NCBI RefSeq assembly: GCF_006352065.1
Contig: NZ_CP040915.1
Coordinates: 2,108,001 to 2,172,000, forward strand
DNA from: Georgenia yuyongxinii
GTDB taxonomy: Bacteria > Actinomycetota > Actinomycetes > Actinomycetales > Actinomycetaceae
DNA length: 64,000 nucleotides
Direction: 5' to 3'
Every line of letters starts with the position of its first letter. Within the stretch, counting starts at the first letter, position 1. Under the pieces are notes generated by a model that saw only the letters and a list, made by a program, of their open reading frames with translations, ran no database searches and had not been told where the DNA came from. Below are positions 49,030 to 64,000 of this stretch, in pieces. Both the position numbers and the translations under genes were made by a program.

Positions 49030-49835
49030 AGGCCGGCGGCCGCGTCGGCGGCGTCCTGAGCCGCGCGGCGCTTGGCGACCCGACGGTCGCGCAGGAAGCT
49101 GATGCCGACCGCCCCGAAGTACAGCGCGCAGATCGGCGCGGCCATCGCGATCATCGACCACGCGTCGGGCAGCGGGTTGGCGAACGCGGCAAACACGAAG
49201 GCGCCGATCACCGCCCAGCGCCACGCCTTGAGATAGGTCCGCCCGGAGACCACGCCGAGGAAGTTCAGGCCGACCATGATCACGGGCAGCAGGAAGGCGA
49301 CGCCGAACGCCAGGATCACCCGCATGAAGAAGGTGAAGTAGGTGCGCGCGTCCATGAGGTTCAACGCCATGGTGGGCGTGAACGAGGTGAGGATCTCCAC
49401 CGCGTGCGGCAGCACCCACCACGCCATCGTGCCCCCGGCCACGAAGAGCAGCGCGCCGGAGATGATGAAGGAGAGCGAGTAGAGCCGCTCCCGGCGCGTC
49501 AGTCCCGGGGTCACGAACATCCAGAGCTGGCCGATCCACCACGGGCTGGAGATGAACAGGCCGAGGAAGATCGAGACCTGCACCTTGAGGTCGAAGGCGG
49601 ACCCCACCGTGCCGAAGTTCAGCGCGGCCTCACGGCCCTGCTCGGTGATGACCTCCAGAGGCGCGGTCATCGCGCCGAGCAGTGGGTCGTACAACAGCCA
49701 CCCGACGACGGCGCCGACGATGATGCCCAGCGCCGCCCACATCACCCGTCTGCGCAGCTCGCGCAGGTGGTCGCCCAGGGGCATGCGCCCCTCGGGGTTC
49801 TTCTTGCGGGAGTGTGCGCGGTCCGTCGCGCTCAC
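49026..49835 (-). CDS. tatC: Sec-independent protein translocase subunit TatC
   Basis: Core receptor of the twin-arginine translocase in the membrane. The 269 residues have six predicted transmembrane segments and the conserved N-terminal MPLGDHLRELRRRV, the periplasmic FIISPW-like loop (LFISSPWWIGQLWMFVTPGL) and the ANPLPDAWS motif after the fifth segment. The GTG start lies two bases after the tatA stop. The order pafB-pafC-tatA-tatC-helY is typical of actinobacteria. Confidence 0.95.
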   Translation of the reverse strand: MSATDRAHSRKKNPEGRMPLGDHLRELRRRVMWAALGIIVGAVVGWLLYDPLLGAMTAPLEVITEQGREAALNFGTVGSAFDLKVQVSIFLGLFISSPWWIGQLWMFVTPGLTRRERLYSLSFIISGALLFVAGGTMAWWVLPHAVEILTSFTPTMALNLMDARTYFTFFMRVILAFGVAFLLPVIMVGLNFLGVVSGRTYLKAWRWAVIGAFVFAAFANPLPDAWSMIAMAAPICALYFGAVGISFLRDRRVAKRRAAQDAADAAAGL

Positions 49836-49837
49836 CG

Positions 49838-50296
49838 TCAGGGCTGCGGCGGCGGGTTCTGACCCGGCTGCTGGGGTGCCTGGCCGGTGTGGGGGTCCTG
49901 CACCGGCGGCGGGTAGACACCCGGCTGCGCGGCCTGCGGGTAGGCGGCCGGCTGCCCGGGCTGCGGGTAACCAACCGGCTGCTCGGCCTGCGGGTAGCCA
50001 ACCGGCTGCCCGGCCTGCGGGTAGCCAACCGGCTGCCCGGCCTGCGGTACACCGGCCGGGGGCACCTGCGCGCCCGGGTAAGGCGGGTAAGCGGTCTGCG
50101 GGGGCTGGCCACCGGTGGCGGTGTAGGAGGACGCGCCGTCGTCGTCCTCGCGCAGCTCCTTGACCTCCTTCTTGAAGACCTTGAGCGACTGCCCGATGCT
50201 CTTCGCGATGTCCGGGAGCTTCGACGCACCGAAGATCAGCAGGATCACAAGCAGCAAGATGATGATGTGCGTGGGCTGCAGGCCGTTGCGGAACAT
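49838..50296 (-). CDS. tatA: Sec-independent protein translocase subunit TatA with repeat tail
   Basis: A 152-residue TatA protein. Residues 4-22 form the single transmembrane helix (GLQPTHIIILLLVILLIFG), followed by the amphipathic helix SKLPDIAKSIGQSLKVFKKEV. The remaining 100 residues are a proline/glutamine/glycine-rich tail with four close repeats of QPVGYPQAG. TatA proteins are usually 60-90 residues, so this tail is unusually long; its role is unknown. ATG 50296 was preferred to a GTG three codons upstream. The gene is next to tatC. Confidence 0.93.
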   Translation of the reverse strand: MFRNGLQPTHIIILLLVILLIFGASKLPDIAKSIGQSLKVFKKEVKELREDDDGASSYTATGGQPPQTAYPPYPGAQVPPAGVPQAGQPVGYPQAGQPVGYPQAEQPVGYPQPGQPAAYPQAAQPGVYPPPVQDPHTGQAPQQPGQNPPPQP

Positions 50297-50458
50297 CGGA
50301 CACACTTTCGTTCGTGAGCGGGACTGTGCTCCAGCCTACCCGCCCCCACCTAGGACCTTTCGCCCGATCACGCCCGTGCCCGACCGCGGCGCGCAGGAAG
50401 CGTGGTGCGGGTGCCCGGCGCCGGTGGAGTGCCGGGTGCGGGTGCAGCGACGGCCAGG

Positions 50459-50770
50459 TCAGTCGGTCAGGCCGTGGCCTCGCCACCGGCCGCGGGCACG
50501 GTCCAGGCGGGCCCGGCGCAGCCGGACCCGCTCGTCGGTGATCCGGGCGCGGGTGGCGCGGGCGGCGTCGAGGGTGGCGGGCTCGCCCAGCGCGCCCGGC
50601 GCGTGCACGGCGGCGGGGACCGGGGCGTCGTCGTCCAGGCGGGCCGTCAGCTCCGCGGCCACGGCGAGGTCACGGCCCAGCGCCTTCGCCTGGCGCCAGA
50701 GCCGCAGCGTCAGGAGCGCGCCGGTGCCCAGCGCGGCCAGCACGAGGAGAATCCAGACGAGCCACCACAT
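50459..50770 (-). CDS. Small membrane protein, unknown function
   Basis: A 103-residue protein with one N-terminal transmembrane helix (residues 2-24) and a long charged C-terminal helix rich in Arg, Ala and Asp. It is often found between pafC and tatA in actinobacteria, with no known role. It follows pafC by five bases on the same strand. Confidence 0.65.
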   Translation of the reverse strand: MWWLVWILLVLAALGTGALLTLRLWRQAKALGRDLAVAAELTARLDDDAPVPAAVHAPGALGEPATLDAARATRARITDERVRLRRARLDRARGRWRGHGLTD

Positions 50771-50775
50771 GCCGG

Positions 50776-51735
50776 TCAGGATAGGTGCTCGTAGGCGGCG
50801 AGCGCGGCACGGGCCCGTACCGCGGCGTCGTGGGCGGCCTCCGGCGGCTGGACCGACCGCACGGCCGGGCCCAGGGAGAGCACCAGGTTGCTGAGCCAGG
50901 CGGCGTCACCCACGAGCAGGCGCACCCGCAGGGCGCCGTCGGGTAGGTCCTCGACCTCCTCCACCGGGGTGTGCTCGGCCACCCACCGCGCCTGGGAGGT
51001 GAGCTCGAGGGTGAGCTCGCGGCCCTCCTCCCACGGCTGGGGCTCGATGAGGTCAGGGTGGTCTGCGGCCGGGGTGGTGAGGACGTCGACGTCGAGGATC
51101 CGGTCGAGCCGGAAGGTACGCGGTCCCTGGGCGCGGTGGCACCAGGCCCGCAGGGACCAGGACGCGCCGTCGGAGCGCAGCTCCACGGGGTCGACCTCCC
51201 GGTCGGTGACCACGTCGGCGGCGGAGACGTACCGCAGCCGTAGCCTCCGGCGCTCGGCCAGCGAGCGCCGCACCGCCGTGAGCGTGCCGACCGGTACCTC
51301 GGCGCTGACACGGACCTGCACGGCGGCGGCCTGGGACGCGGCGTCGCCGGTGGCCCCGGCGAGCTTGGCGATGGCGCTCTCCAGGGCGTCCGGCGACGCT
51401 GCGACTCCGCTCGCGACGAGCTCACGCAGCGACCGCAGCGCGACCAGGAGCGAGAGCGCCTCGGCGGGGCTCAGCCGCAGCGGGCGGTCCATCCCGCGGG
51501 CGTCGGTCAGCGTCAGCTCGCCGTGGTCCATCGCCTCGGCGGAGAAGTCGATGAGGTCGTCGGGGAAGTACCCGGGCGTGCCGGCGACCCACAGCAGGTT
51601 CACGTCCGCGAGCACCTGCGCCTCGGTGGTGCCGAAGTGGGCCGCGACGTCGGGCACCGGGGCGCCGGGATGGTCGTGCAGGTAGGTCACCAGGGCGAGC
51701 AGCCGGGTGACGCGGTCGGCGGTGGTCTCAGCCAC
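50776..51735 (-). CDS. pafC: PafC, WYL-domain transcriptional regulator
   Basis: A 319-residue partner of PafB; together they activate a LexA/RecA-independent DNA-damage response in mycobacteria. The N-terminal winged-helix DNA-binding region spans residues about 5-60 (VTRLLALVTYLHDHPGAPVPDVAAHFGTT), and the WYL domain about 145-215 (LRLRYVSAADVVTDREVDP and LRAWCHRAQGPRTFRLDRI). The C-terminal domain carries LLVGDAAWLSNLVLSLGP. It overlaps pafB by eight bases, so the two are co-translated. Confidence 0.92.
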   Translation of the reverse strand: MAETTADRVTRLLALVTYLHDHPGAPVPDVAAHFGTTEAQVLADVNLLWVAGTPGYFPDDLIDFSAEAMDHGELTLTDARGMDRPLRLSPAEALSLLVALRSLRELVASGVAASPDALESAIAKLAGATGDAASQAAAVQVRVSAEVPVGTLTAVRRSLAERRRLRLRYVSAADVVTDREVDPVELRSDGASWSLRAWCHRAQGPRTFRLDRILDVDVLTTPAADHPDLIEPQPWEEGRELTLELTSQARWVAEHTPVEEVEDLPDGALRVRLLVGDAAWLSNLVLSLGPAVRSVQPPEAAHDAAVRARAALAAYEHLS

Positions 51736-52756
51736 GGGCGGTCACCTCGTCCAGCGCCGCTACGGCACGTAGCCGGCCAAGGACCGCGGCACGCAGCTCC
51801 GCCGGGGCCAGGACGAGCACCGCCTCGGCGTAGGTGGCGACCTCCTCCGAGAAGGCCTCCAGGTCCGCGTAGGGCACCTCGATGACGTCGCGGTCGGTGA
51901 GGGCAGCAGCGGGCCGAGGCCCATCGGCAGAGCTCTTCCCCGCCGGGTCCGCACCTGCTGCACCGGGCAGTGCGCGGGTGCGCAGGGCGGCCGCCCGATC
52001 GGGCAGCACGGCCAGGCGGGCGGTGCCGGAGCGGGGCCGTGCGCGCTCGAGGAGGCTCTCGACGTCGGTGTCCGCCGGGACCGTGAAGGCGCCGGGCGCG
52101 CCGGTGGCCCGGACGCGTCCAGTGATGCGTGAGAGGCGGAACGCGCGGGGCGCCGCGCGGTCGACGTCCAGGCCCACGAGGTACCAGCCGCGGTCGCGGC
52201 TGAGGATGCGCCACGGCTGGACGGTGCGTCGGGCCGTCTCCCCCGTGCTCGCCGCCCGGTAGGTGAACGTCACCGCCTGGCGGGCGTCGATCGCCTCGAG
52301 CAGCGGGGCGAAGGCGGCCTCGGGCCCGCGCACGCGTAGCGCGAGGCCCGCGTGGGCGCCCGGGTCGGGCGCGAGGCCGACGGCGCGCAGCTTCGTCACG
52401 CCACGCGAGGCGAACGCGCGCAGCGAGGCGTCCTGCCAGAGCTCGGCCGCCAGGGAGAGCACGCCTGCCTCCTCGGGCGTGAAGGCGACCGGGGGCAGGG
52501 TGTAGCCGGCGGTGTCGACGCGGTAGCCGACGTCGTCCTCGTGCACGACGCCGTGCTCGACGACGATCGGCACCCCCATCTCCCGCAGCAGGTCCTTGTC
52601 GCGCTCGAACATCCGCTCGAAGGCCTCGTCGCTCACGGCGTCGGCGTACCCGTTGACCCGCTCGCGGATCTGGCGCTTGCTCATCCACCTCGGGGTGTGC
52701 GTCAGCGCGATCACCAGGTCGAGCAGCCGTTCGGCCGCCTCCACGCGCTGTGCCAC
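51728..52756 (-). CDS. pafB: PafB, WYL-domain transcriptional regulator
   Basis: A 342-residue regulator with an N-terminal winged helix (VIALTHTPRWMSKRQIRERV) and a WYL domain at about residues 165-235 (TFTYRAASTGETARRTVQPWRIL and YLVGLDVDRAAPRAFRLSRI), followed by a C-terminal domain. In mycobacteria PafBC drives DNA repair genes after DNA damage. The GTG start was chosen because TACCGT (minus, 52768-52763) lies six bases upstream, fitting a leaderless transcript and the start of the pafB-helY run. LysE is the next gene upstream. Confidence 0.92.
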   Translation of the reverse strand: MAQRVEAAERLLDLVIALTHTPRWMSKRQIRERVNGYADAVSDEAFERMFERDKDLLREMGVPIVVEHGVVHEDDVGYRVDTAGYTLPPVAFTPEEAGVLSLAAELWQDASLRAFASRGVTKLRAVGLAPDPGAHAGLALRVRGPEAAFAPLLEAIDARQAVTFTYRAASTGETARRTVQPWRILSRDRGWYLVGLDVDRAAPRAFRLSRITGRVRATGAPGAFTVPADTDVESLLERARPRSGTARLAVLPDRAAALRTRALPGAAGADPAGKSSADGPRPAAALTDRDVIEVPYADLEAFSEEVATYAEAVLVLAPAELRAAVLGRLRAVAALDEVTARG

Positions 52757-52829
52757 GCGCTCACGGTACCGGGCCGCCGGCCGGCGGTGCCGCAGGCCTG
52801 GGCATTCGGCGAGGCCGTGACGAGGGCCG

Positions 52830-53426
52830 TCATCCACGCAGCAGCCGCACGGCGAGCGCGATCATGACGACCCCGATGACGAGATCGAGCACCCGCCAGG
52901 TGGCCGGACGGCTCATGACGCGCGAGGCGGCGCGGGCACCGAACCCCAGGGTGGTGAACCACAAGAAGCTGCCGGCCACGGCGCCGGCGGCGAACCACCA
53001 GCGCGCCTCGCCGTGCTGGTTAGCGATGGAGCCAAGCATGAGCACCGTGTCGAGGTAGACGTGGGGGTTGAGGTAGGTCAGCGCGAGGGTGGTCGCCACG
53101 ACCGTCCGGCGCCCTGCCCCGCCGCCCTCCAGCGGGTTCAGGGCCTGCGGCCGCCGGGCCTTCCACAGCGACCGCACGCCGTATGCGGCGAGGTACGCCC
53201 CACCGACCCAGCGCAGCACCGTCATCGCCGTCGGGTGGTCCTGCACGAGCGCACCGACGCCGCTCACCCCGACCGTGATGAGGAGCGCGTCCGAGACGGC
53301 GCAGATCGCCACGACGAGGCCGACGTGGTGGCGGGTCAGTCCCTGCTTGAGAACGTAGGCGTTCTGGGCGCCGATCGCGACGATGAGCGAGAGGCCGGTC
53401 AGGAGGCCGGGGAGGGCGGCGGGCAC
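52830..53426 (-). CDS. lysE: LysE family amino-acid exporter
   Basis: A 198-residue membrane exporter for basic amino acids (LysE/ArgO). It has about six transmembrane segments, and the family signatures GLSLIVAIGAQNAYVLKQGL at residues 10-29 and LALTYLNPHVYLDTVLMLG at about 113-131 (the NPHVYLDT motif). GTG 53426 lies seven bases behind TAGGTT (minus, 53439-53434). It is divergent from lysG, as in Corynebacterium glutamicum, where LysG activates lysE when lysine or arginine builds up. Confidence 0.93.
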   Translation of the reverse strand: MPAALPGLLTGLSLIVAIGAQNAYVLKQGLTRHHVGLVVAICAVSDALLITVGVSGVGALVQDHPTAMTVLRWVGGAYLAAYGVRSLWKARRPQALNPLEGGGAGRRTVVATTLALTYLNPHVYLDTVLMLGSIANQHGEARWWFAAGAVAGSFLWFTTLGFGARAASRVMSRPATWRVLDLVIGVVMIALAVRLLRG

Positions 53427-53496
53427 GCCGTCGAACCTAACGCCGCCCGCGCGTGAAGGACAGCGAATGTTTCTGACGGGCCATTAGCGTTGCTTT
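53427..53496. promoter_or_regulatory. Shared lysE/lysG divergent promoter region
   Basis: The 70-base gap holds a -10 box for lysE (AACCTA, read as TAGGTT on the minus strand, 53434-53439) and one for lysG (TAGCGT at 53485-53490), each 6-7 bases from its start codon. The -35 and LysG binding sites must overlap in the middle, so the genes can be co-regulated from one short segment. Confidence 0.55.
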
Positions 53497-54390
53497 ATGC
53501 AGGTCCGACCCGAGCAGCTCGCCGCACTGGTGGCCATCGTGGACGAGGGCACGTTCGAGGCGGCAGCGCGGCGGCTGTCCGTGACGCCGTCGGCGATCAG
53601 CCAGCGCATCCGCGCGCTCGAGACCCAGGTGGGCCAGGTGCTCCTGGTGCGGACGACGCCGAGCCGGACTACCGAGGCGGGCGGCGTGCTGCTCCGCCTG
53701 GCGCGTCAGCAGCAGGTCCTCGAGCACGAGGCACTGGCCGCGCTGTCAACCGGGGACGCCGGCGAGGCCGCCACCGCCGGGACCATGGACCTGGCGGTGG
53801 CGGTCAACGCCGACTCGCTCGCGACGTGGTTCGCGGAGGTCCTCAGCACGTGCGCTTCGTGGGGTGACGTGACCGTGCGGCTGCACGTCGAGGACGAGGG
53901 CCACTCCGCGGCGCTCCTGCGCACCGGGGAGGTCCTGGGAGCGGTCACGTCCGACCCCGTCGCGGTGCAGGGCTGCTCGGTGGAACGGCTCGGGACCATG
54001 CGCTACCTCCCGGTCGCGACGCCGGAGCTCGCCCGGCGCTGGACGAAGGGACGAGGCACGGACTGGGCGCGGATGCCGGTCGTGCGGTTCAACGCCAAGG
54101 ACGACCTGCAGCACAAGGTGCTCGCCGCCCACGGGGTCACGGGCACGCCACCGACCCACATCGTCCCCACTTCGCAAGGATTCCTCGCTGCCGTGCGGGC
54201 GGGGCTGGGGTGGGGTGCGGTGCCCGAGGCACAGCTCGGCGACGACCTCGAGACCGGTCGCCTGACACGGCTCAGCAGCCGCGACCGCGTCGACGTCCCG
54301 CTGTACTGGCAGTGCTGGCGCATGCGCTCCCAGAGCGTGGAGCGCATCACGGAGGCCGTGCGGGTCGCGGCGGCGTCCCTGCACCGCTGA
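53497..54390 (+). CDS. lysG: LysG/ArgP-like LysR-family regulator
   Basis: A 297-residue LysR-type regulator. The winged helix is at residues 5-60 (LAALVAIVDEGTFEAAARRLSVTPSAISQRIRALE), and the effector domain follows from about 95 (DLAVAVNADSLATWF), resembling ArgP/LysG. It should activate lysE when basic amino acids are high. The ATG is six bases after a TAGCGT box, giving a probable leaderless message. Pairing with divergent lysE supports the assignment. Confidence 0.92.
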   Translation: MQVRPEQLAALVAIVDEGTFEAAARRLSVTPSAISQRIRALETQVGQVLLVRTTPSRTTEAGGVLLRLARQQQVLEHEALAALSTGDAGEAATAGTMDLAVAVNADSLATWFAEVLSTCASWGDVTVRLHVEDEGHSAALLRTGEVLGAVTSDPVAVQGCSVERLGTMRYLPVATPELARRWTKGRGTDWARMPVVRFNAKDDLQHKVLAAHGVTGTPPTHIVPTSQGFLAAVRAGLGWGAVPEAQLGDDLETGRLTRLSSRDRVDVPLYWQCWRMRSQSVERITEAVRVAAASLHR

Positions 54391-54446
54391 CGTGGCGCGA
54401 CCCCGGGCTAGAGTGCGCGTCACCTGCGAGCGTTGGAGGCAGCTCC

Positions 54447-55064
54447 GTGCGGCACACACCCCACTTCCTGCTGGAGGACGTCGCCGAGGTCAAGCGGCTC
54501 ATCCGGGAGAACCCATGGGCGACGCTGGTGAGCCACACCGCCGCGGGCCTCGTGGCCAGCCACTACCCGGTGGTGCTCGAGGACGGTCCGGCGGGCGAGA
54601 TCAGCATCGTCAGCCATGTCGGCCGGCCCGACGAGGTGGCGCACGAGCTCGGCGCGGGCGAGGTGCTTGTGATCATCCAGGGGCCGCACGGCTACGTCTC
54701 CCCGAGCTGGTACCCCGAGGGTGACCTCGTGCCCACCTGGAACCACGTCACGGCGCACCTGTGGGGCACACCGGAGATTCTCTCGGCCGAGGAGAACTAC
54801 GCGGTCCTCGAGGCCCTGGTCGACCTGTTCGAGCAGCGGATGCCGCGGCCGCGGAGCCTGCGCATGGACGAGGACCAGAGCCGGCGCATCGCCACGGGCA
54901 CGGTCGGGCTGCGGCTCCGGGTGACCCGGTTCGACGCGCGGGCGAAGCTGAGCCAGAACAAACCCGCCGACGTCGTCGCCCGCATCATCGAAGAGCTCGA
55001 GACGGACCGGCCGTACGCGAACGCCGCGCTCGCAGGCGAGATGCGGCGGTTCCACGGCGGCTGA
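54447..55064 (+). CDS. PaiB-like FMN-binding protein
   Basis: A 205-residue protein of the PaiB/FMN-binding split-barrel family. The N-terminus reads RHTPHFLLEDVAEVKRLI, typical of PaiB, and the barrel part includes HYPVVLEDGPAGEISIVSHVGR and YVSPSWYPEGDLVPTWNH. Bacillus PaiB is described as a regulator of protease and sporulation genes, but most homologues may be flavin enzymes. The GTG has TTGGAGG upstream. It lies between lysG and the convergent DNA ligase gene. Confidence 0.85.
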   Translation: MRHTPHFLLEDVAEVKRLIRENPWATLVSHTAAGLVASHYPVVLEDGPAGEISIVSHVGRPDEVAHELGAGEVLVIIQGPHGYVSPSWYPEGDLVPTWNHVTAHLWGTPEILSAEENYAVLEALVDLFEQRMPRPRSLRMDEDQSRRIATGTVGLRLRVTRFDARAKLSQNKPADVVARIIEELETDRPYANAALAGEMRRFHGG

Positions 55065-55077
55065 TCGGGAGCTCACC

Positions 55078-56142
55078 TCAGCGGCGCGGAAGGATGTCGG
55101 AGAGCCTGTAGCTGACCGGCTCCTCGAGCTGGTCGTAGGTGCAGGACCGTGGGTCGCGGTCGGGGCGCCAGCGCCGGTACCGGGGGATGTGCCGGAACCG
55201 GTTGCCCTCCATGTGGTCGTAGGCGACCTCGACCACGAGCTCGGGGCGCAGCGGGACGAAGGAGAGGTCCTTGGTCGCGTTCCACCGGCTCACAGCACCG
55301 GGCAGCCGGTTCTGCGGGTGGGCCTCCTGGTCGGCCCAGGCACCCCACGGGTGGTCGGCGAGGTCCACGTCCCGGTAGGGCGCCAGCTCGTCGAGCAGGC
55401 TCTTGCGCCGGGCCATCGGGAAGGACGCCGTCACGCCCACGTGCTGGAGCTGCCCGTCCTCGGTGTACAGCCCCAGCAGCAGCGAGCCGACCACGCCGCC
55501 GGTCTTGTGCCAGCGGAAGCCGGCGACCACGCAGTCCGCGGTGCGTTCGTGCTTGATCTTGTACATCGCACGCTTGTTCGGCTGGTAGGTGCTGTCCAGC
55601 GGCTTGGCGACGACGCCGTCGAGCCCCGCGCCCTCGAAGGTCTCGAACCACTGCAGGGCCTGGGCGAGGTCCGTGGTGGCCGGCGTGGGGAAGATCGGGT
55701 CGGCGGCGTCGTCGAGGGCCTCGAGGAGGAGCGCGCGGCGCTCACGGAACGGCCTGCGCATGAGGTCGTCGTCGTCGAGCGCGAGGAGGTCGAAGCCGAC
55801 GAAGGAGACCGGGGTTTGCTCGGCGAGCAGCTTGACGCGGCTCGCGGCCGGGTGGATCCGCTGCTGCAGGGCGTCGAAGTCGAGCCGGTCACCGGTGACC
55901 AGGATGATCTCGCCGTCGATGACGCAGCGCGCCGGGGTGTTGGCCTTGATCGACTCGATCAGCTCGGGGAAGTACCGGGTCATGGGCCGTTCGTTGCGGC
56001 TGCCGAGGACCACCTCGTCGCCGTCGCGGAAGACGATGGTGCGGAACCCGTCCCACTTGGGCTCGGTGTGGCCGAGGTCGGGGACCTCGGGGACCGACTT
56101 GGCCAGCATGGGCGCGACCGGTGGCATGACGGGCAGGTCCAT
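55078..56142 (-). CDS. ligC: ATP-dependent DNA ligase, LigC-type
   Basis: A 354-residue DNA ligase. The nucleotidyl-transfer motif I is EPKWDGFR with the adenylated lysine at K29. Motif III is LLALDDDDL-like (FVGFDLLALD), motif IV GLDGVVAKP and motif V AMYKIKHER, followed by an OB-fold domain. Size and domain set match mycobacterial LigC (about 358 residues) rather than LigB or LigD. In mycobacteria it acts with PrimPolC in base-excision-type repair. The primase-polymerase gene is adjoining upstream, and both are on the minus strand. Confidence 0.92.
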   Translation of the reverse strand: MDLPVMPPVAPMLAKSVPEVPDLGHTEPKWDGFRTIVFRDGDEVVLGSRNERPMTRYFPELIESIKANTPARCVIDGEIILVTGDRLDFDALQQRIHPAASRVKLLAEQTPVSFVGFDLLALDDDDLMRRPFRERRALLLEALDDAADPIFPTPATTDLAQALQWFETFEGAGLDGVVAKPLDSTYQPNKRAMYKIKHERTADCVVAGFRWHKTGGVVGSLLLGLYTEDGQLQHVGVTASFPMARRKSLLDELAPYRDVDLADHPWGAWADQEAHPQNRLPGAVSRWNATKDLSFVPLRPELVVEVAYDHMEGNRFRHIPRYRRWRPDRDPRSCTYDQLEEPVSYRLSDILPRR

Positions 56143-56145
56143 GAC

Positions 56146-57198
56146 TCAGTCCTTCTTGGCGCGGCTTGGCTGCACCCGGGCCGGCTCGCCGGGCATCTTC
56201 GGGTACTCCGGCGGGTAGGGCAGGTCGCCGTGGCCGGACGCCTCGTCCCGCGCGTACCACTCCAGCAGCGGCGTGAGGTCGTGGGCGACGTCGTCGATGG
56301 TGGCGTGCAGGTCCCCGCGCTCGGCGAACCGGGCGGGCATCGTGCGCACGGTGAGGTCCCGGGGGTCGACGTCGGGCAGCTCGTCCCACAGCACCGGTGC
56401 CGAGACCGGCGCGTGCGCCAGCGGGCGGATGCTGTAGGCGCTGGCGATGGTGCGGTCGCGGGCGTTCTGGTTGTAGTCGACGAAGATCGTCTCCCCGCGC
56501 TCCTCTTTCCACCAGTGCGTCGTCACCTTGCCCGGCATGCGCCGCTCGAGCTCGCGGCCGAACGCGATGGCCGCGTGCCGCACGTCGGTGAACGTCCACC
56601 GCGGCTGGATGCGCACGTAGATGTGCACGCCCCGGTTCCCGGACGTCTTGGGGAAGGCGACCCAGCCGAGCTCCTCGACCAGCGCACGTGCCTCGCCGGC
56701 GACCGTGACGGCGTCGGTGAAGTCCGTGCCGGGCTGGGGGTCGAGGTCGATGCGCAGCTCGTCGGGATGGTCCACGTCCGCCTGGCGCACCGGCCACGGG
56801 TGAAACGTGATCGTGCCCAGGTTGGCCGCCCACGCGACGGCCGCCAGGTCGGTGGGGCACAGCTCGTCCGCGGTGCGGCCGCTGGGGAAGGTGATCGTGG
56901 TGGTGGGGATCCAGTCGGGCGCGGAGTCCGGCACCCGCTTCTGGTAGAACGCGTCGCCGCGCGGGTCCGCGCGGGTGGCGCGTTTGGCGCCCTCGCGGAC
57001 CCCACCGGGCCACCGCTCCAGGGTCACCGGCCGCTCGCGCAGCGCCCGGAGGATCCCCTCCCCCACGCTGAGGTAGTACTCGACCATCTCGCGCTTGGTG
57101 ATGCCGACTTCGGCGAAGTAGACCTTGTCGGGGTTGCTCACCCGCACGCTGCGGCCGGCCACCTCGATCTCGATCGCCGGTGTCTTCGACGGTGACAT
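56146..57198 (-). CDS. LigD-type primase-polymerase (PrimPol)
   Basis: A 350-residue polymerase-domain protein of the LigD/PrimPol family, which fills gaps during repair. The catalytic acidic motif is in ELRIDLDPQPG, and the nucleotide-binding histidine in WVAFPKTSGNRGVHIYVRI; metal and 5'-phosphate contacts lie in the N-terminal KVYFAEVGITKREMVEYY part. It corresponds to mycobacterial PrimPolC, which pairs with LigC in the same order. The ATG lies seven bases behind TAGCGT (minus, 57211-57206). The ligase begins three bases past this gene's stop. Confidence 0.9.
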   Translation of the reverse strand: MSPSKTPAIEIEVAGRSVRVSNPDKVYFAEVGITKREMVEYYLSVGEGILRALRERPVTLERWPGGVREGAKRATRADPRGDAFYQKRVPDSAPDWIPTTTITFPSGRTADELCPTDLAAVAWAANLGTITFHPWPVRQADVDHPDELRIDLDPQPGTDFTDAVTVAGEARALVEELGWVAFPKTSGNRGVHIYVRIQPRWTFTDVRHAAIAFGRELERRMPGKVTTHWWKEERGETIFVDYNQNARDRTIASAYSIRPLAHAPVSAPVLWDELPDVDPRDLTVRTMPARFAERGDLHATIDDVAHDLTPLLEWYARDEASGHGDLPYPPEYPKMPGEPARVQPSRAKKD

Positions 57199-57312
57199 GG
57201 CCGGAACGCTACCGTGCGGCCTTCGCGCCGGCCCGAGGATCCCCCGCACGCCGATTGGGAGGGACGACGGCGCACCCCGCCGCTCGTCGTCGCGGCCGGT
57301 AGCGTGGCGGCC

Positions 57313-58518
57313 GTGATGATCTGGCGGGACGGCGTCGTGCGTGGCCTGGGGACGTCGTGGACGGGCGCCGTCGAGCTCGACGTCGAGATCACCGTGGCTC
57401 CCGGCCCCGACCGTGCGGAGGGCGCCGGTCCCCTGCCACCCGGGTCCCTGCCACCCGGGACGCTGCCGCCCGGGTCCCACGTCCGGGCCCTGGCCTATCC
57501 GCGCCTCGTCGGGGAGCCGAGGCTCGGCGACCGGGTGCTGCTGTCGGCAGCGCCGCTCGCCCGTGGGCTCGGCACCGGCGGGTACGCGCTGGTAGTCGCG
57601 TTGCCCGACCGGCTGCCCGCGGACCCGCCGCCCGCGCCCGGCCACCTCGTCAAGGCCCGGTACACCCCGCTGCAGGCCATGGTCCTGGGCGCCGACGAGC
57701 AGGAGTCGGCGCACCACCACCTCCTGGAGGACGCCGACGACCTCGCCGGGCTGCCGGTGGTGGTGGCGGACCTGCACTCGGCGCTGCCCGCGGTCGTCGC
57801 CGGCGTGCGCGCGGCCGAGCCCGCCCTGCGGGTGGCCTACGTGATGACCGACGGCGGAGCGCTGCCGGCCTGGTTCTCCCGCACGCTCGCCGGGCTGCGC
57901 GAGGCCGACTGGCTGTGCGGCTCGGTGACGGTGGGGCAGGCGTTCGGCGGCGATGTCGAGGCTGTCTCGCTGCACTCGGGGCTGCTGGCGGCGCGGATGG
58001 TGCTGGGAGCCGATCTCGCCGTCGTCGCGCAGGGCCCAGGCAACCTTGGCACGGGCACGCGGTGGGGGTTCTCTGGCACGGCCGGCGGGGACGCGGTCAA
58101 CGCCGTCGCGGCCCTGCGTGGGCGCCCGGTGGCCGCGCTGCGAGTCTCCGGGGCAGACCCGCGCGAGCGGCACCTGGGCATCTCGCACCACTCGCTCACC
58201 GCCTACGGCCGCGTGGCGCTCGCCCCGGCCGACGTGGTGGTGCCCGCCTTCGACGCGGGCACGGACCTGGAGCAGTCCCTGCCGGAGGGTCTCCCGGCGA
58301 AGGTGCGGGCCCAGGCGGCCGCGCTGGCCGCCCCGGCCGGCATCCACCGGCTGGTGGAGGTCACGACGGCGGGGCTGGCCGAGGCGCTCGCGACCTCGCC
58401 CGTGCGCCTGTCCACCATGGGTCGCTCACTCGAGCAGGACCCCGCGGCGTTCCTCGCGGCCGCGGTGGCCGGGGTGCATGCGGCGCGGCTGGCGGACGTC
58501 GCAGACGCCTGGCGATGA
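57313..58518 (+). CDS. DUF3866 protein
   Basis: A 401-residue protein matching DUF3866, an actinobacterial family of unknown function. It contains LPPGS-type repeats at about residues 38-55, the central HLVKARYTPLQAMVLGADEQES and the conserved SGTAGGDAVNAVAALRGRPV and RERHLGISHHSLTAYGR. No signal peptide or membrane segment is evident. GTG 57313 was preferred to ATG 57316 because TAGCGT (57300-57305) lies seven bases upstream, as with other leaderless genes. Its last codon and stop fall inside a 19-bp tandem repeat. Confidence 0.85.
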   Translation: MMIWRDGVVRGLGTSWTGAVELDVEITVAPGPDRAEGAGPLPPGSLPPGTLPPGSHVRALAYPRLVGEPRLGDRVLLSAAPLARGLGTGGYALVVALPDRLPADPPPAPGHLVKARYTPLQAMVLGADEQESAHHHLLEDADDLAGLPVVVADLHSALPAVVAGVRAAEPALRVAYVMTDGGALPAWFSRTLAGLREADWLCGSVTVGQAFGGDVEAVSLHSGLLAARMVLGADLAVVAQGPGNLGTGTRWGFSGTAGGDAVNAVAALRGRPVAALRVSGADPRERHLGISHHSLTAYGRVALAPADVVVPAFDAGTDLEQSLPEGLPAKVRAQAAALAAPAGIHRLVEVTTAGLAEALATSPVRLSTMGRSLEQDPAAFLAAAVAGVHAARLADVADAWR

Positions 58519-58562
58519 CATCTCACCGACAAGATGACATCTCACGGAGAAGATGACATCTC
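58514..58562. repeat. 19-bp tandem repeats, GATGACATCTC core
   Basis: Two near-identical 19-bp units (GATGACATCTCACCGACAA and GATGACATCTCACGGAGAA) at 58514-58532 and 58533-58551 are followed by a third copy of the GATGACATCTC core at 58552-58562. GATGACATC is a partial dyad. The first unit contains the DUF3866 stop codon. The array might be an iteron-like binding site or the relic of an insertion-sequence end. Confidence 0.8.
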
Positions 58563-58586
58563 GCAGGCCGGGGTGGGTGGGCGCCG

Positions 58587-59036
58587 CTAAAAGCGGGGCT
58601 CGTGCAGGGCCACCAGCGTGGCGAGGCGCCGGGACTCGGCGACGGCGCGCGCGCCGTCGGCTCGCTGGATCGCCATGACCGCGAGCGTGTCGCCGTCGGT
58701 GAGGTCGAGCTGGACCCAGGGGCTGCCTTCCCCGAAGTTGACCGACACGATCTCCGTCCATTCCACGGCGCGGGTGTAGATGAAGTTGCGCACCGTCAGA
58801 CCGGCCTGGTCGGGCAGGGCTCGGACGGCGCCCTGGCGCCACAGCAGCCAGAGGATGCACGCCGCGAGCAGCACCATGCCCGTGTGGTCGGCGAGGGTGA
58901 AGGTCACCCCCGGCATCTGGGGCACCAGGATCATGACCAGCGCCGTGCCCACGACCGTCAGCACACCGAGCACGATGGCGACCCGCCGGGCGGCGCGGGG
59001 CCGGAACGGCAGGTGCAGCTCGGCGGCCGTCGTCAT
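58587..59036 (-). CDS. PH-domain-like membrane protein
   Basis: A 149-residue protein with two transmembrane segments at about residues 19-37 and 50-66 and a C-terminal bacterial PH-like domain (LTVRNFIYTRAVEWTEIVSVNF and WVQLDLTDGDTLAVMAIQ). Such proteins are often encoded next to hisG in actinobacteria; function is unknown. Its start lies one base past the hisG stop, so it is co-translated with hisG. Confidence 0.8.
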   Translation of the reverse strand: MTTAAELHLPFRPRAARRVAIVLGVLTVVGTALVMILVPQMPGVTFTLADHTGMVLLAACILWLLWRQGAVRALPDQAGLTVRNFIYTRAVEWTEIVSVNFGEGSPWVQLDLTDGDTLAVMAIQRADGARAVAESRRLATLVALHEPRF

Positions 59037-59037
59037 G

Positions 59038-59889
59038 TCAGACGCGGCAGGCGTGGATCGAGGTGACCAGGATGGCCCGCGCGCCCACGTCGTACAGCTC
59101 GTCCATCACCTTGTTGGTGACGTCCTTGCGGACCATCGAGCGCACCGCCGACCACTTGCCGTCGTGCAGCGGCGAGACGGTCGGGGACTCGAACCCGGGG
59201 GTGATGGCCACGGCGGCCTCGAGGTGCTCGTTGGGCACGTCGTAGTCCATCAGGACGTACTGGCGGGCCACGAGGACTCCCTGGAGGCGCCGGTCGAGGA
59301 TCGTCAGGCCGTTGGAGGGCTCCGCCTCGCCCGGCTTGCGGATGAGCACCGCCTCTGAGCGCAGGATCGGCTCCCCGAAGGTGGCCAGCCCGGCGGCGCG
59401 GAGGGTGGAGCCGGTCTCCACCACGTCCGCGACGACGTCGGCGATGCCCAGCTGCACCGAGGACTCCACCGCACCGTCCAGGTGCACCACCGCGGCGTCC
59501 ACGCCGTGCTCGGCGAGGTAGTCGCCCACCAGCACGTCGTAGCTCGTGGCCACCCGCTTACCGTTCACCTGCTCGAGGCTCGTGATCTCCCCGGCGGGCG
59601 CGGCGAACCGGAAGGTGGAGGTCGCGAAGCCGAGCGGCCGGTGCTCGACGGCCTCGACGCCGGAGTCCAGCAGCAGGTCGCGCCCGGTGATGCCGACGTC
59701 CACCGTCCCGGAGCCGACGTAGACGGCGATGTCCCGCGGGCGCAGGTAGAAGAACTCGACGTCGTTGGCCGGGTCGGCGAGCACGAGCTCACGGCCGCCC
59801 GGGCCGCGCTGACGGTAGCCCGCCTCGCTGAGCATCTCGGACGCGGGCAGGGACAGCGAGCCCTTGTTGGGGACGGCGATACGCAGCAC
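59038..59889 (-). CDS. hisG: ATP phosphoribosyltransferase, long form
   Basis: First enzyme of histidine synthesis, joining ATP and PRPP. The 283 residues begin [13 protein letters not shown] and contain [10 protein letters not shown], the PRPP loop region [18 protein letters not shown] and a C-terminal ACT-like domain of about 75 residues that binds histidine for feedback inhibition, so it is the long, self-regulated form. The GTG start has GGAG seven bases upstream. hisE precedes it by 44 bases on the same strand. Confidence 0.95.
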
Positions 59890-59933: not shown

Positions 59934-60197
59934 TCACAGGTGACGGTAGACGTCGTCGAGCGTGAGCCCCTTGGCGATCATCATCACCTGCAGGTGATAG
60001 ATCAGCTGGCTGATCTCCTCGGCCGCCGCCTCGTCGCTCTCGTGCTCGGCCGCCATCCACACCTCGGCGGCCTCCTCGACCACCTTCTTGCCGATGGCGT
60101 GGATGCCCGCGTCCAGCTCGGTGACGGTCCGGGAGCCCTCCGGCCGGGTCGCGGCCTTGTGCTGCAGCTCGGCGAAGAGCTGGTCGAAGGATTTCAC
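59934..60197 (-). CDS. hisE: Phosphoribosyl-ATP pyrophosphatase
   Basis: Second enzyme of histidine synthesis. The 87-residue MazG-like protein starts [16 protein letters not shown] and carries [19 protein letters not shown], whose acidic residues bind magnesium, and the conserved ending [15 protein letters not shown]. The GTG at 60197 was chosen over GTG 60206 because TAGGGT (minus, 60210-60205) lies seven bases upstream. That -10 box includes the stop codon of the upstream binding-protein gene, so hisEG can be expressed independently of the riboswitch-controlled genes. Confidence 0.94.
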
Positions 60198-60204
60198 GGC
60201 GCCC

Positions 60205-60210
60205 ACCCTA
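60205..60210 (-). promoter_or_regulatory. -10 box for hisE within the ribY stop codon
   Basis: The minus-strand hexamer TAGGGT (60210-60205) begins with the TAG stop codon of the upstream binding-protein gene and is seven bases from the hisE GTG. It separates hisEG transcription from the riboswitch operon. Confidence 0.55.
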
Positions 60211-61266
60211 GTTGGTGGCGGCGGGCAGGAACTTCGCCGTCCAGGCGTCGGCCGCGTCCACGTCCGCCTCGAGGAGTCCGCGCTCGGTCATGAACGCCAC
60301 CATCGCCGCCCAGGTTGCGGGGTCCTGGGCTCCGAACGCGGACGCCTCGCCGTACAGGGGCACGGTGGCCTCGAGCGTGGCGAGCGCGGCCTGCTGCCGG
60401 TCGGGCCGGTCCAGGTCCGGCACGTAGTCGGCGGCCAGCTCGACGGCGGCGGCCGGGTCCGCGGCGACGTCCGCCGCCCCGCGCAGGGTGGCCTCGACGA
60501 CGGCGGCCACGTCGTCGGGGCGGGAAGCGGCGGTCTCGTCGAGGACGCCCAGGCCGATCCCGACGAGGGGGGTGACGCCGTCGGCGTTCGGGGGGATCTC
60601 GATGGTGCGCACGGCCATGCCCGCGCCCGCGAAGTTCACGGCGTCGTTGTTGACGAAGCCCATGACTGCGTCCACGTGGCCCGCCGCGAGGGCGGCCTGC
60701 TGGGTGAAGCCGATGTGCTCGACGTCCACGTCGGCCTCGGTCAGGCCGGCCGCGCCGAGGAGAGCGAGGAGCCCGAAGTAGGTCTCGCCGAACGGGCCGG
60801 GGACTCCCACGCTGTGCCCGGCCAGGTCGGCCGGGGATGTGATGGGCGAGTCCTCCGGGACGATGAGGACCACCGGGTACTCCTGGTACAGCGTCGCCAC
60901 GGAGAGCAGCGGCACGTCCTGGGATCGGGCCTGCAGCATCTCGTCACCGCCGGCGACGACCACGTCCTCCTGGCCGGCCGCGATCGCGGTGAACAGCTGC
61001 TCGCTCTGACCGTGGTGGCGCAGCGTGACGTCCACGCCGGCCTCGTCGTAGTAGCCCTTCGCGTCCGCGACGTAGAACGGGGCGAATTGGATGTCCGGCA
61101 CGTAGGTCAGCCCGACGGTCACGGCTCCCGCGGCGGCGGGTGACGCGCCGCCCGCGCCGGCCGTGGTCTCTTCGCCGGAGGGTTCCCCGGTCGGTGGTGC
61201 GGCGCAGGCTGCGAGGGTGAGTGCGGCGAGGCCGACGGCGGCGGCGAGGCGGGCGCGGAAGGTCAT
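60208..61266 (-). CDS. ribY: THI5/NMT1-type ABC binding lipoprotein (probable riboflavin, RibY-like)
   Basis: A 352-residue lipoprotein with signal peptide and lipobox LAAC at about residue 21, a Thr/Gly/Ala-rich linker and a THI5/NMT1-like (SsuA-type) binding domain starting [29 protein letters not shown]. Because it follows the permease downstream of an FMN riboswitch, it is probably the riboflavin-binding RibY component rather than a thiamine-precursor or sulfonate carrier. The gene name is inferred from this context. It sits 146 bases after the permease, across a GC-rich spacer with a G-quadruplex motif. Confidence 0.82.
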
Positions 61267-61330
61267 GGATCGGCTCCTGGTGGCGCGGGCTGGCGGGCGG
61301 ATGAGGTGAGGCTGGCGGGTGAGGTACTGC

Positions 61331-61345
61331 GGGCGGGCGGGCGGG
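61331..61345 (+). other. G-quadruplex motif in ribX-ribY spacer
   Basis: GGGCGGGCGGGCGGG forms a canonical four-run G-quadruplex pattern on the plus strand, with further G-runs just beyond. It lies in the template strand of the ribX-ribY transcript and might slow transcription. Confidence 0.5.
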
Positions 61346-61412
61346 TGAGGTGGGGCGGGCGGGCGGCAGGTCGGGGCGGGCGATCGGTCCCGGCGGAAGG
61401 ACGTGGTGCGGT

Positions 61413-62267
61413 TCAGCGGTTGACCAGGTGCCGCTCCAGGGCGGTGAGCAGGCCGTAGATCGCCATGGCGAGCGCGCACAGGACAATGAGGGTGGAGAAG
61501 ATGCCGGTGGTGTCGGCGGACCGGCCGTGCGCGGCGAGCATGAGACCGAGGCCCTCGCCACCGATGACCATCTCGCCTACGACCGCGCCGGTCACGGACA
61601 GGGTGAAGCCGTTGCGCAGCCCGGTGAGCAGGCTCGGCAGGGCCAGCGGCAGCTGGATGGAGCGCAGGAGGTCCCACTCCCCCGCACCGTCGAGCCGGGC
61701 GGCGGCGACGACGTCCGGGTCCAGGGACCGCAGCCCGTGCACGGTGGCCAGGAGGATGGGGAAGAACACCAGGAGCGCGCAGAGCACGGCGATCGGGACG
61801 AGGCCGTACCCGAGCCAGATCGTCAGCAACGGCGCGACCGCGACGGCCGGCAGCGCCTGGGACGCCGCGATGTAGGGCTCGAGCGCGGCGGCCGCCCAAC
61901 GGCTGCGGAAGACGGCGTAGCCGAGCGGGAGCGCGACGACGGTGCCGAGCACGCACCCGAGGGCAGCCTCCACCAGCGTGGGTGCGGTGTACGCGAGCAG
62001 GTTGCCGGTCGTCAGGTCCTGCCCCAGGCGTACCGCCACCGCGGTGGGGGCCGGGAGGAAGAACGCCGGCACCACGCCGGCACGAGAGACCAGCTCCCAG
62101 GCGACAAGGACGACGGCACCGGCGACGATCGCCGCACCCCCACGGCGGCGCAGCGGGACTGCTCGCCGGGGCGGACGGGAGAGGCGGTCCACCGTGCGCG
62201 TACGGTCTGCCGACGAGACGGACGGCACGAGCGTCGCCGCTCTGCCGTGGCCTGCCTGAGTAGTCAC
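61413..62267 (-). CDS. ribX: ABC transporter permease (probable riboflavin, RibX-like)
   Basis: A 284-residue BPD-type permease of the SsuC/ThiX family with about six transmembrane segments. The EAA loop is DPDVVAAARLDGAGEWDLLRSIQLPLALPSL. It is the first gene behind the FMN riboswitch, so riboflavin is the likely substrate, as for described RibXY systems. The GTG start at 62267 was chosen because the frame upstream runs into the riboswitch region and lacks coding bias. No ATPase gene adjoins; one must be supplied from elsewhere or lie beyond the right edge. Confidence 0.82.
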   Translation of the reverse strand: MTTQAGHGRAATLVPSVSSADRTRTVDRLSRPPRRAVPLRRRGGAAIVAGAVVLVAWELVSRAGVVPAFFLPAPTAVAVRLGQDLTTGNLLAYTAPTLVEAALGCVLGTVVALPLGYAVFRSRWAAAALEPYIAASQALPAVAVAPLLTIWLGYGLVPIAVLCALLVFFPILLATVHGLRSLDPDVVAAARLDGAGEWDLLRSIQLPLALPSLLTGLRNGFTLSVTGAVVGEMVIGGEGLGLMLAAHGRSADTTGIFSTLIVLCALAMAIYGLLTALERHLVNR

Positions 62268-62341
62268 CTGCGTCCTCCCCGTCCGGGCACATGGACCGGG
62301 GACGACGGACCGGCGGCGGCACGAAGCCGTCACCGAGCCTC

Positions 62342-62364
62342 GGCGCGCACGAGTTGCGCGCGCC
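62342..62364 (-). terminator. Hairpin downstream of FMN riboswitch
   Basis: GGCGCGC at 62342-62348 pairs with GCGCGCC at 62358-62364, directly after the 3' end of the riboswitch on the minus strand. It could be the expression-platform terminator or a sequester hairpin; no clear U-tract follows. Confidence 0.45.
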
Positions 62365-62365
62365 G

Positions 62366-62491
62366 CGTGCTTCCTCCCATCCGGACTTTTACCGTCGGTC
62401 CTGGAGTTTCACCAGGTCAACCGAGCACCCGAGGGTGCGCGGCTCGCGGACTGTCACCGCCGGTTCGGACTCTCACCGACCCCGGAGCACG
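62366..62491 (-). ncRNA. FMN riboswitch (RFN element)
   Basis: Read on the minus strand, the region has the conserved RFN blocks in order: CCGGGGTCGGTGAGAGTCC, GAACCGGCGGTGACAGTCCG, CGAGCC, a variable hairpin CGCACCCTCGGGTGC, then ACCTGGTGAAACTCCAG, GACCGACGGT and AAAGTCCGGATGGGAGGAAG. The outer helix pairs CGTGC (62491-62487) with GCACG (62370-62366). Binding of FMN should switch off the downstream genes. It lies 98 bases before the ribX start. Confidence 0.93.
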
Positions 62492-63124
62492 TGCTTGTTA
62501 CCGGGCCAGCATACGGGAGACGCGTGTCCCGGCGCAGCCGTCCTCGCGAAAGCCGGCGTGGCCGCTCTCGGGGGGCGCCGCTCCAGAGCGACCGCAAGCA
62601 TCTCGATCAGGTCACGATCTGGCGGCTCTGCGGTGCAAGCGACCGGGCTGTGGGCCTCGGCAGCCGGCAGGTCCACAGAGCGAACACCGGCTGGAGCGCA
62701 GCGCTCACTGCTGCCCCGACTGCCCTACCCACCCGCAGACTCCGGCCGCGCACAGCCGTTTGTTCCCCATGCGCACACCTGGTTCCGGCGCCGTCGCCAC
62801 TCTCGCCCGACCGATGCACACGAGCATCGGGGCCGCGCACGACGCTTCCGCCCGTCACTCGGGACACGTCCAGAGGTCCTTGACGTGTGACCTTCGTCCC
62901 ACCTAGGTTCTCCATGCGAACCACAGTTGCACCTGAGAACCACACGACCTTCCGGTCCGGCCCCGCATTGCTGCGGACGGGCCGGCGGGCCGCTACCCCC
63001 GAGAGCGCCCGCCACGACGACGAGACGACACGCGAAGCCGTACCACCCTCCACCGCCTCACGGCGGCCAGCCCAGTCGTCAGCCGACGACTTCGCCTGAA
63101 ACCTTCGAGGAAGGACTCATCCCC
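62492..63124. other. Long intergenic region between divergent transporter operons
   Basis: About 630 bases without a supported gene. The left end should contain the promoter of the riboswitch transcript. Open frames in the rest lack codon bias. GGTTCTC at 62906-62912 and GAGAACC at 62936-62942 form a spaced inverted repeat that could be a regulator site for the downstream binding-protein gene. Confidence 0.5.
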
Positions 63125-64000
63125 ATGAGAGCACGACGCCTGCCCCTGGCTGTTGCCGCAGCCTCCGCCCTCCTGTTCACCGCAGCCTGCGGCGGCGGTG
63201 GCACCACCGAGGAGACCTCGGCCGCCCCTGGCACCGAGGAGACCACCGGCGCCGAGGCCGGCGGCGACCTCACCCCGATCACGGTCGGTGTCATCCCGAT
63301 CGTCGACACCGCCGCCATCTGGCTGGGCGTGGACCAGGGGATCTTCGAGGAGCACGGCCTCGACGTCACGCTCGACGTGGCCCAGGGCGGTGCCGCGATC
63401 GCCCCCGCAGTCGTCTCCGGGGACTATCAGTTCGGGTTCTCCAACGTCGTCTCGTTGCTCATCGCCTCGTCCAAGGGCCTACCGCTGCAGATCGTGGCGC
63501 CGGGCAACTTCTCCACCGGCGACACGACGGCGGACATCGGCGCCGTCGTGACCAAGCCCGACTCCGGCATCACCTCGCCGGCCGACCTCGCCGGCAAGAC
63601 CGTCGCCGTGAACACCCTGAACAACATCGGCGATGTCACGGTCAAGGAGGTCGTCGCCAAGGCGGGCGGCGACCCCGAGTCGATCCAGTTCGTGGAGATG
63701 GGCTTCCCGGACATGCCGGCCGCCGTCGAGAGCGGGCAGGTGGACGCCGCGTGGATCCTCGAGCCGTTCCTGACGATCACGAAGGAGCAGGGCGCCGAGG
63801 TGGTGACCCACAACTTCGCCGAGGTCGACCCCGACATGATGATCGCCGCCTACTTCACCACTCGGCAGTACGCCCAGGCCGAGCCGGAGATCGTCGAGAA
63901 CTTCACCGCGGCGATGAACGAGTCGCTGGACTACGCCGAGGCGAACCCGGACGAGGCCCGCGCGATCATCAGCACCTACACCGAGATCGACCCGGCGGTG
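63125..64000 (+). CDS. ABC transporter substrate-binding lipoprotein (partial, runs off right edge)
   Basis: At least 292 residues; no stop appears before the edge. It starts MRARRLPLAVAAASALLFTAAC, a lipoprotein signal with lipobox TAAC, followed by a Thr/Glu/Gly-rich linker and an SsuA/THI5-like binding domain (ITVGVIPIVDTAAIWLGVDQGIFEEHGLDVTLD). The family covers sulfonates, nitrate, taurine and pyrimidine-like ligands, so substrate is uncertain. The ATG has GAGGAAGGA upstream. It is divergent from the riboswitch operon and is probably followed by permease and ATPase genes beyond the window. Confidence 0.88.
   Translation, partial: MRARRLPLAVAAASALLFTAACGGGGTTEETSAAPGTEETTGAEAGGDLTPITVGVIPIVDTAAIWLGVDQGIFEEHGLDVTLDVAQGGAAIAPAVVSGDYQFGFSNVVSLLIASSKGLPLQIVAPGNFSTGDTTADIGAVVTKPDSGITSPADLAGKTVAVNTLNNIGDVTVKEVVAKAGGDPESIQFVEMGFPDMPAAVESGQVDAAWILEPFLTITKEQGAEVVTHNFAEVDPDMMIAAYFTTRQYAQAEPEIVENFTAAMNESLDYAEANPDEARAIISTYTEIDPAV

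Follow-up and report, generated by a model that had tools for sequence, protein, structure and literature searches.

A probable RibXY-type riboflavin importer behind an FMN riboswitch in Georgenia yuyongxinii

The window analyzed here is a 64,000-nucleotide stretch (positions 2,108,001 to 2,172,000 of contig NZ_CP040915.1) of the genome of Georgenia yuyongxinii, which is a single contig of 4,171,640 bases with an estimated completeness of about 98%. Near the end of the window, an FMN riboswitch is followed on the minus strand by genes for an ABC transporter permease and a putative flavin-binding lipoprotein, here called ribX and ribY, and then by hisE and hisG. The features discussed below are the following:

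62364..62493, minus strand: complete FMN riboswitch aptamer (RF00050; cmscan)
62268..62363, minus strand: leader between the aptamer and ribX, with three hairpins predicted by RNA folding
61413..62267, minus strand: ribX, ABC permease of 284 amino acids with a GTG start (Pfam BPD_transp_1, E 1.5e-32)
60208..61266, minus strand: ribY, putative flavin-binding lipoprotein of 352 amino acids with a THI5/NMT1 fold (Pfam NMT1, E 3.4e-42)
59934..60197, minus strand: hisE, which starts 10 bases after ribY; a conserved neighbor, not part of the transporter
ending at 59038: hisG, following hisE; a conserved neighbor, not part of the transporter
52757..55080, unstranded interval: pafB to DNA ligase, containing lysE, a LysR gene and a PaiB-like gene and no rib operon (synteny and Pfam)

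The riboswitch, its leader and the two transporter genes

A sequence-only reading of this DNA had placed a complete FMN riboswitch at 62491-62366 on the minus strand and proposed a comparison with the Rfam model, which now gives the same element to within 2 bases. The match scores 94.4 bits against a gathering threshold of 66.2 (E 1.8e-20 over the window), covers model positions 1-138 of 138, contains every helix with no non-standard pairs marked, and is the sole FMN match across the 4.17 Mb genome. The permease gene lies directly downstream, with 96 bases between the aptamer and the ribX start. The same scan gave no match to a TPP riboswitch in the 64-kb window. It also located a bacterial RNase P class A RNA at 749-1133 on the plus strand (289.6 bits).

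Downstream of the aptamer, no terminator-like site was found, and the third hairpin of the leader can pair with the Shine-Dalgarno region GGGGAGG that precedes the GTG start of ribX. The Shine-Dalgarno region is at least partly paired in all 13 leaders that were folded, yet the mean of 0.73 compares with 0.68 in controls with shuffled upstream sequence, and for single leaders between 3 and 88 of 100 shuffles reach the observed masking, the sequence being GC-rich. The RNAalifold consensus of the 13 leaders is weak, with two-sided change in one of seven pairs. An action of the switch on translation through masking of the ribosome-binding site is thus likely but unproven, as the predicted masking does not rise above chance. 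If the switch acts on transcription instead, hisE and hisG would also be under flavin control; hisE lies on the same strand and within 1.2 kb of the start of the ribY match in 39 of 58 loci.

The assignment of the two genes as a permease (62267-61413) and a THI5/NMT1-type lipoprotein (61266-60208) agrees with the Pfam matches. The lipobox cysteine of RibY is residue 21 and recurs in all 23 aligned relatives, partly by construction since the starts of the relatives were picked by a lipobox rule. An AlphaFold2 model of RibY built with 72 sequences has a pLDDT of 90.9.

Conservation of the unit and loss of riboflavin biosynthesis

The arrangement of switch, ribX and ribY is conserved across the family. 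In 53 of the 54 family genomes that encode RibY, an FMN riboswitch precedes ribY by 819-1374 bases on the same strand; the exception is the genome of G. thermotolerans (G002), where the contig ends at ribX. A ribX match adjoins ribY in 58 of 58 loci. A wider scan for named RibY loci, of which the best 80 of 386 confirmed loci were taken, including ten of a Chloroflexota group, found ribX inverted in two and missing from short contigs. Among these best 80, the RibY proteins of the ten Chloroflexota-group loci are 45-53% identical to that of the window, and eight of the ten have a full FMN riboswitch ahead of ribX in the same orientation. The switch of a ninth (L250) is cut by the contig end and scores 55.2 bits, below the cut-off; none was found in the available stretch of the tenth (L213).

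In a tree, the 72 RibY sequences, including those of the Chloroflexota group, group together to the exclusion of five paralogues from the own genome (98/95), the paralogue branches being long and the RibY of Chloroflexus aurantiacus standing outside the loci included. The RibY of the window pairs with that of G. thermotolerans (98/82) within a group of four Georgenia sequences (100/97) that includes three of the eight congeners searched.

Among four Streptomyces loci, the switch is upstream of ribY in L189, on the other strand in L201, and absent from L194 and L202. Six of 12 further loci have a switch, which is upstream on the ribY strand in L183, L188, L204 and L215 and far off on the opposite strand in L196 and L210; the sequence is cut off near ribY in L190, L208 and L223, and L197, L198 and L209 have no switch. 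The five Streptomyces loci with no switch in the available stretch (L194, L197, L198, L202 and L209) cluster together in the tree, and the regulation or the substrate of their RibXY pairs may differ. A genome outside the family (G092) encodes RibXY at C1:749903-750847 (L119), where a search of the 16 kb around the pair gave no FMN riboswitch up to E 0.1, and retains both ribE and ribH.

The genome of G. yuyongxinii itself has no match to lumazine synthase (PF00885, ribH) or riboflavin synthase (PF00677, ribE), models that found a match in 14 and in 11, respectively, of 14 control genomes. Both were found in eight of eight congeners, among them G. thermotolerans (G002), G. subflava (G005), Georgenia sp. 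EYE_87 (G001) and SYP-B2076 (G008), so that ribE and ribH are missing from G. yuyongxinii alone among the nine Georgenia genomes searched. Flavokinase (PF01687) is present, and the RibM-type transporter family PF04973 is absent. A gene for a GTP cyclohydrolase II/RibD_C fusion is kept at about C1:405400-407030 (L273 2402-4033, by Pfam), away from the former place of the rib operon, and the genome has 15 RibD_C-like matches; because these remain, the case for loss of the pathway rests on ribE and ribH, the last two steps only. The genes adjoining the fusion appear by eye to be glycosyltransferase-like and amidotransferase-like.

The former place of the operon can be seen by synteny. In six congeners (G001-G005 and G008), a rib operon with a second FMN riboswitch lies between pafB and either a ligase or a DUF3866 gene, and in the other two (G006 and G007) the operon lies between tatA and pafC. 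In the window, no rib operon is present from pafB to the DNA ligase gene, and no remnant of a second riboswitch was detected in 49800-59100 up to E 1. The PaiB-like gene inside this interval (54447-55061, plus strand) encodes a putative FMN-binding protein (PF04299). A deletion between ribY and hisE was considered and rejected, since the relatives also have hisE directly after ribY and carry the rib operon further on. The loss appears to be recent, as judged from the gene tree, because G. thermotolerans, the nearest relative in the RibY tree, keeps the operon. In the accessible portions of the literature on Georgenia and riboflavin and on riboflavin auxotrophy in Actinomyces, nothing on this loss was found. 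Georgenia offers a clean comparison, with eight congeners that have the synthesis operon and one that does not.

Across 61 genomes of the family, RibY occurs without ribE/ribH in 40, together with them in 14, and is absent from six with biosynthesis only; one genome has neither. The complementarity of RibY and biosynthesis gives a Fisher p of 0.004, a value for related genomes that is uncorrected for kinship. By genus (36 in total), 25 have RibXY only, four have both, four have biosynthesis only, two are mixed, and one is represented by the genome with neither (G043). This genome, 79% complete, carries rpe, an FMN riboswitch and ribX before its contig breaks off. With G043 counted for this terminal ribX, all 41 family genomes that lack ribE/ribH thus show ribXY or ribX. 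In a set of 99 genomes, five further members of the order (G062, G078, G088, G091 and G094) have neither a close RibY nor ribE, G088 being 88% complete.

Substrate and proposed mechanism

The RibXY family has been described before, and the following statements are drawn from the accessible parts of the sources cited. RibXY was named from FMN regulons of Chloroflexi, is homologous to ThiXYZ, and lacks an ATPase (PMC3766115). The RibXY of C. aurantiacus rescues a riboflavin auxotroph of E. coli, and its RibY binds flavins; in Actinobacteria, RibXY with an FMN riboswitch occurs both with and without biosynthesis; RibX and RibY are assigned to COG0600 and COG0715; and an ATP-binding gene, ribZ, is associated with ribXY in a few Chloroflexi (PMC4418817). 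RibXY has also been placed in auxotrophs and prototrophs (PMC6593275) and in auxotrophs (PMC12702654). The locus in the window has the same order of FMN riboswitch, permease and NMT1-type lipoprotein, with no ATPase in the operon, as the systems of C. aurantiacus and the Actinobacteria in these texts (PMC3766115, PMC4418817). No architectural difference from published RibXY was found; here hisE and hisG directly follow, and ribE and ribH are missing from the genome. The unit is a member of an already published family and is nothing new as a kind; the dependence on it and the question of its ATPase are the useful parts.

The premise of the sequence-only reading, that FMN riboswitches control only riboflavin synthesis or uptake genes, proved too strong, as the accessible text of PMC4418817 also lists yaaDE and a carbohydrate kinase. 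Because that text includes two FMN-riboswitch genes with no obvious role in riboflavin metabolism, the switch alone is not proof of the substrate. The nearest relatives of RibY by both fold and sequence are thiamine-precursor or thiamine binding proteins, which counts against the riboflavin reading: the PDB folds closest to the model are 3ix1 (formylaminopyrimidine-binding) and 4nmy (thiamin-bound), followed by Thi5, with SsuA and TauA appearing later. The pair could accordingly be a thiamine-precursor importer resembling ThiXY, with an FMN riboswitch that is misplaced or regulates for another reason. Although the fold of the binding protein is like that of ThiY, the window has an FMN and not a TPP riboswitch and the operon no ATPase gene, and the motif W-x-P-x-x-x-H of 3ix1, 4nmy and Thi5 is Y-x-P-x-x-x-F in RibY according to profile alignments. 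The phenylalanine that replaces the histidine, Phe61, and the adjacent Gln60 do not vary among the 23 relatives in alignment A1, which comes from a whole-protein search and is cited here because a second alignment (A2) is partly circular, its search pattern having contained Phe61. Both residues may contact the ligand. With the switch kept in 53 of 54 genomes and ribXY or ribX retained in every family genome without ribE/ribH, a thiamine-precursor importer is highly improbable.

An identity as an importer of sulfonates, taurine or aromatic compounds within the SsuABC/TauABC group, the same broad group of ABC importers, has in its favor a generic likeness, with RibY scoring 81 bits against the NCBIfam model SsuA_fam and RibX scoring 103.5 bits against SaoP, 82.6 against TauC and 77.7 against SsuC. 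These scores fall well short of the curated cut-offs of 163.5, 295, 342 and 347, respectively, and all the NCBIfam models listed for RibX and RibY (sulfonate, taurine, nitrate and related) are under cut-off. Moreover, members of that group, unlike the unit here, have an ATPase gene, and the neighboring paralogue, perhaps an aromatic-compound importer, branches apart from RibY and has its own permeases and ATPase. We regard such a substrate as scarcely credible for RibXY. This neighbor belongs to a divergent operon at 63125-64000 on the plus strand of the window (continuing at L002 7125-12681) in which Pfam identifies an SsuA-like binding protein, two permeases, an ATPase, an FAD-binding monooxygenase and an IclR regulator; the operon may serve aromatic acid uptake and catabolism. 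In Georgenia sp. EYE_87, the FMN riboswitch and the homologous binding-protein gene are separated by two genes that appear pca-like on visual inspection.

The remaining alternative lies within the flavins, and the main substrate could be FMN or a degradation product in place of riboflavin. The switch senses FMN and not the substrate, and the RibY of C. aurantiacus is reported to bind flavins; the growth rescue by C. aurantiacus RibXY in the accessible text of PMC4418817 was by riboflavin, and we consider another main substrate unlikely.

The reading of the pair as RibXY, put forward earlier, holds up well on the full aptamer, the conserved switch, the retention of RibY where ribE and ribH are missing, and the grouping with RibY of the Chloroflexota. 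We thus infer, with a probability of about 0.9, that the locus encodes a RibXY-type ABC importer for riboflavin with an ATPase acting in trans and an FMN-repressed leader, the substrate, direction, switch mechanism and ATPase all being inferred. In this mechanism, RibY, a lipoprotein at the outer surface of the membrane, would bind the flavin and deliver it to a dimer of RibX, while an ATPase from another locus would provide ATP hydrolysis in trans. Flavokinase would convert the riboflavin taken up to FMN, and FMN binding to the leader would lower expression, most likely through the hairpin covering the ribosome-binding site of ribX. RibXY is probably the sole riboflavin supply of G. yuyongxinii because the biosynthetic operon seems to have been lost in this lineage. 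A pair that generic annotation would label as transporting sulfonate or thiamine would then import riboflavin, and the organism probably depends on it.

The ATP-binding partner

The ribXY operon contains no ATPase gene, as had been noticed from the sequence alone. With one ATPase query, none of 58 ribXY loci gave an ABC ATPase within the operon, five matches lying 3.8-5.5 kb away on the other strand. The best 80 of the 386 named loci gave 0 of 80, with four matches 3.8-6.0 kb away, the one in L226 being on the same strand; the two sets share loci, and the contigs include short ones. The ABC system encoded divergently in the window has its own ATPase (63125 to beyond the window, L002 7125-10715). 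Sharing of this ATPase was considered and is unlikely as a general answer, since most other ribXY genera have no ATPase match at that place.

Small family genomes that rely on RibXY are informative in this respect. The best SsuB/TauB-type scores in three such genomes are 133 (G037), 120 (G039) and 120 bits (G055), and the six ATPases of the own genome that lie beside permease or binding-protein genes, taken as a reference, score 173-305 bits; by score, the three genomes appear to be without an SsuB/TauB-type ATPase. Two others that also rely on RibXY (G056 and G059) have matches of 164 and 161 bits and may encode one. The dependence on RibXY in genomes with no SsuB/TauB-like ATPase by score makes the question of the missing ATPase directly testable.

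In the 1.5 Mb genome of G037, the seven best of 13 ATPase matches all have their own permease adjacent or are of exporter type, with the exception of a solitary ATPase of importer type that scores above the NCBIfam cut-off for UgpC. The models name it UgpC/MalK, and we take it to be of the MsiK type. MsiK is a sugar-importer ATPase. The orthologue of the G037 ATPase in G. yuyongxinii lies at C1:504706-505824, beside a DUF4032 gene. An MsiK-like gene is present in 59 of the 61 genomes searched, including genomes without RibXY, and this ATPase is therefore a candidate partner of RibXY by elimination only and not by association. It is a tentative and somewhat doubtful proposal that the RibXY of the family is energized by this shared MsiK/UgpC-type ATPase, which would then serve both sugar uptake and the only vitamin B2 supply of the cell; if true, it would be the missing ATPase of RibXY. 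In each of the four genomes examined for this (L153, L158, L164 and L270), a DUF4032-type gene adjoins the solitary MsiK/UgpC-like ATPase; this neighbor is named by Pfam in L270 and recognized by sequence likeness in the other three. Near the ATPase in L153, L158 and L164, a gene that appears by eye to be protein-kinase-like is also present.
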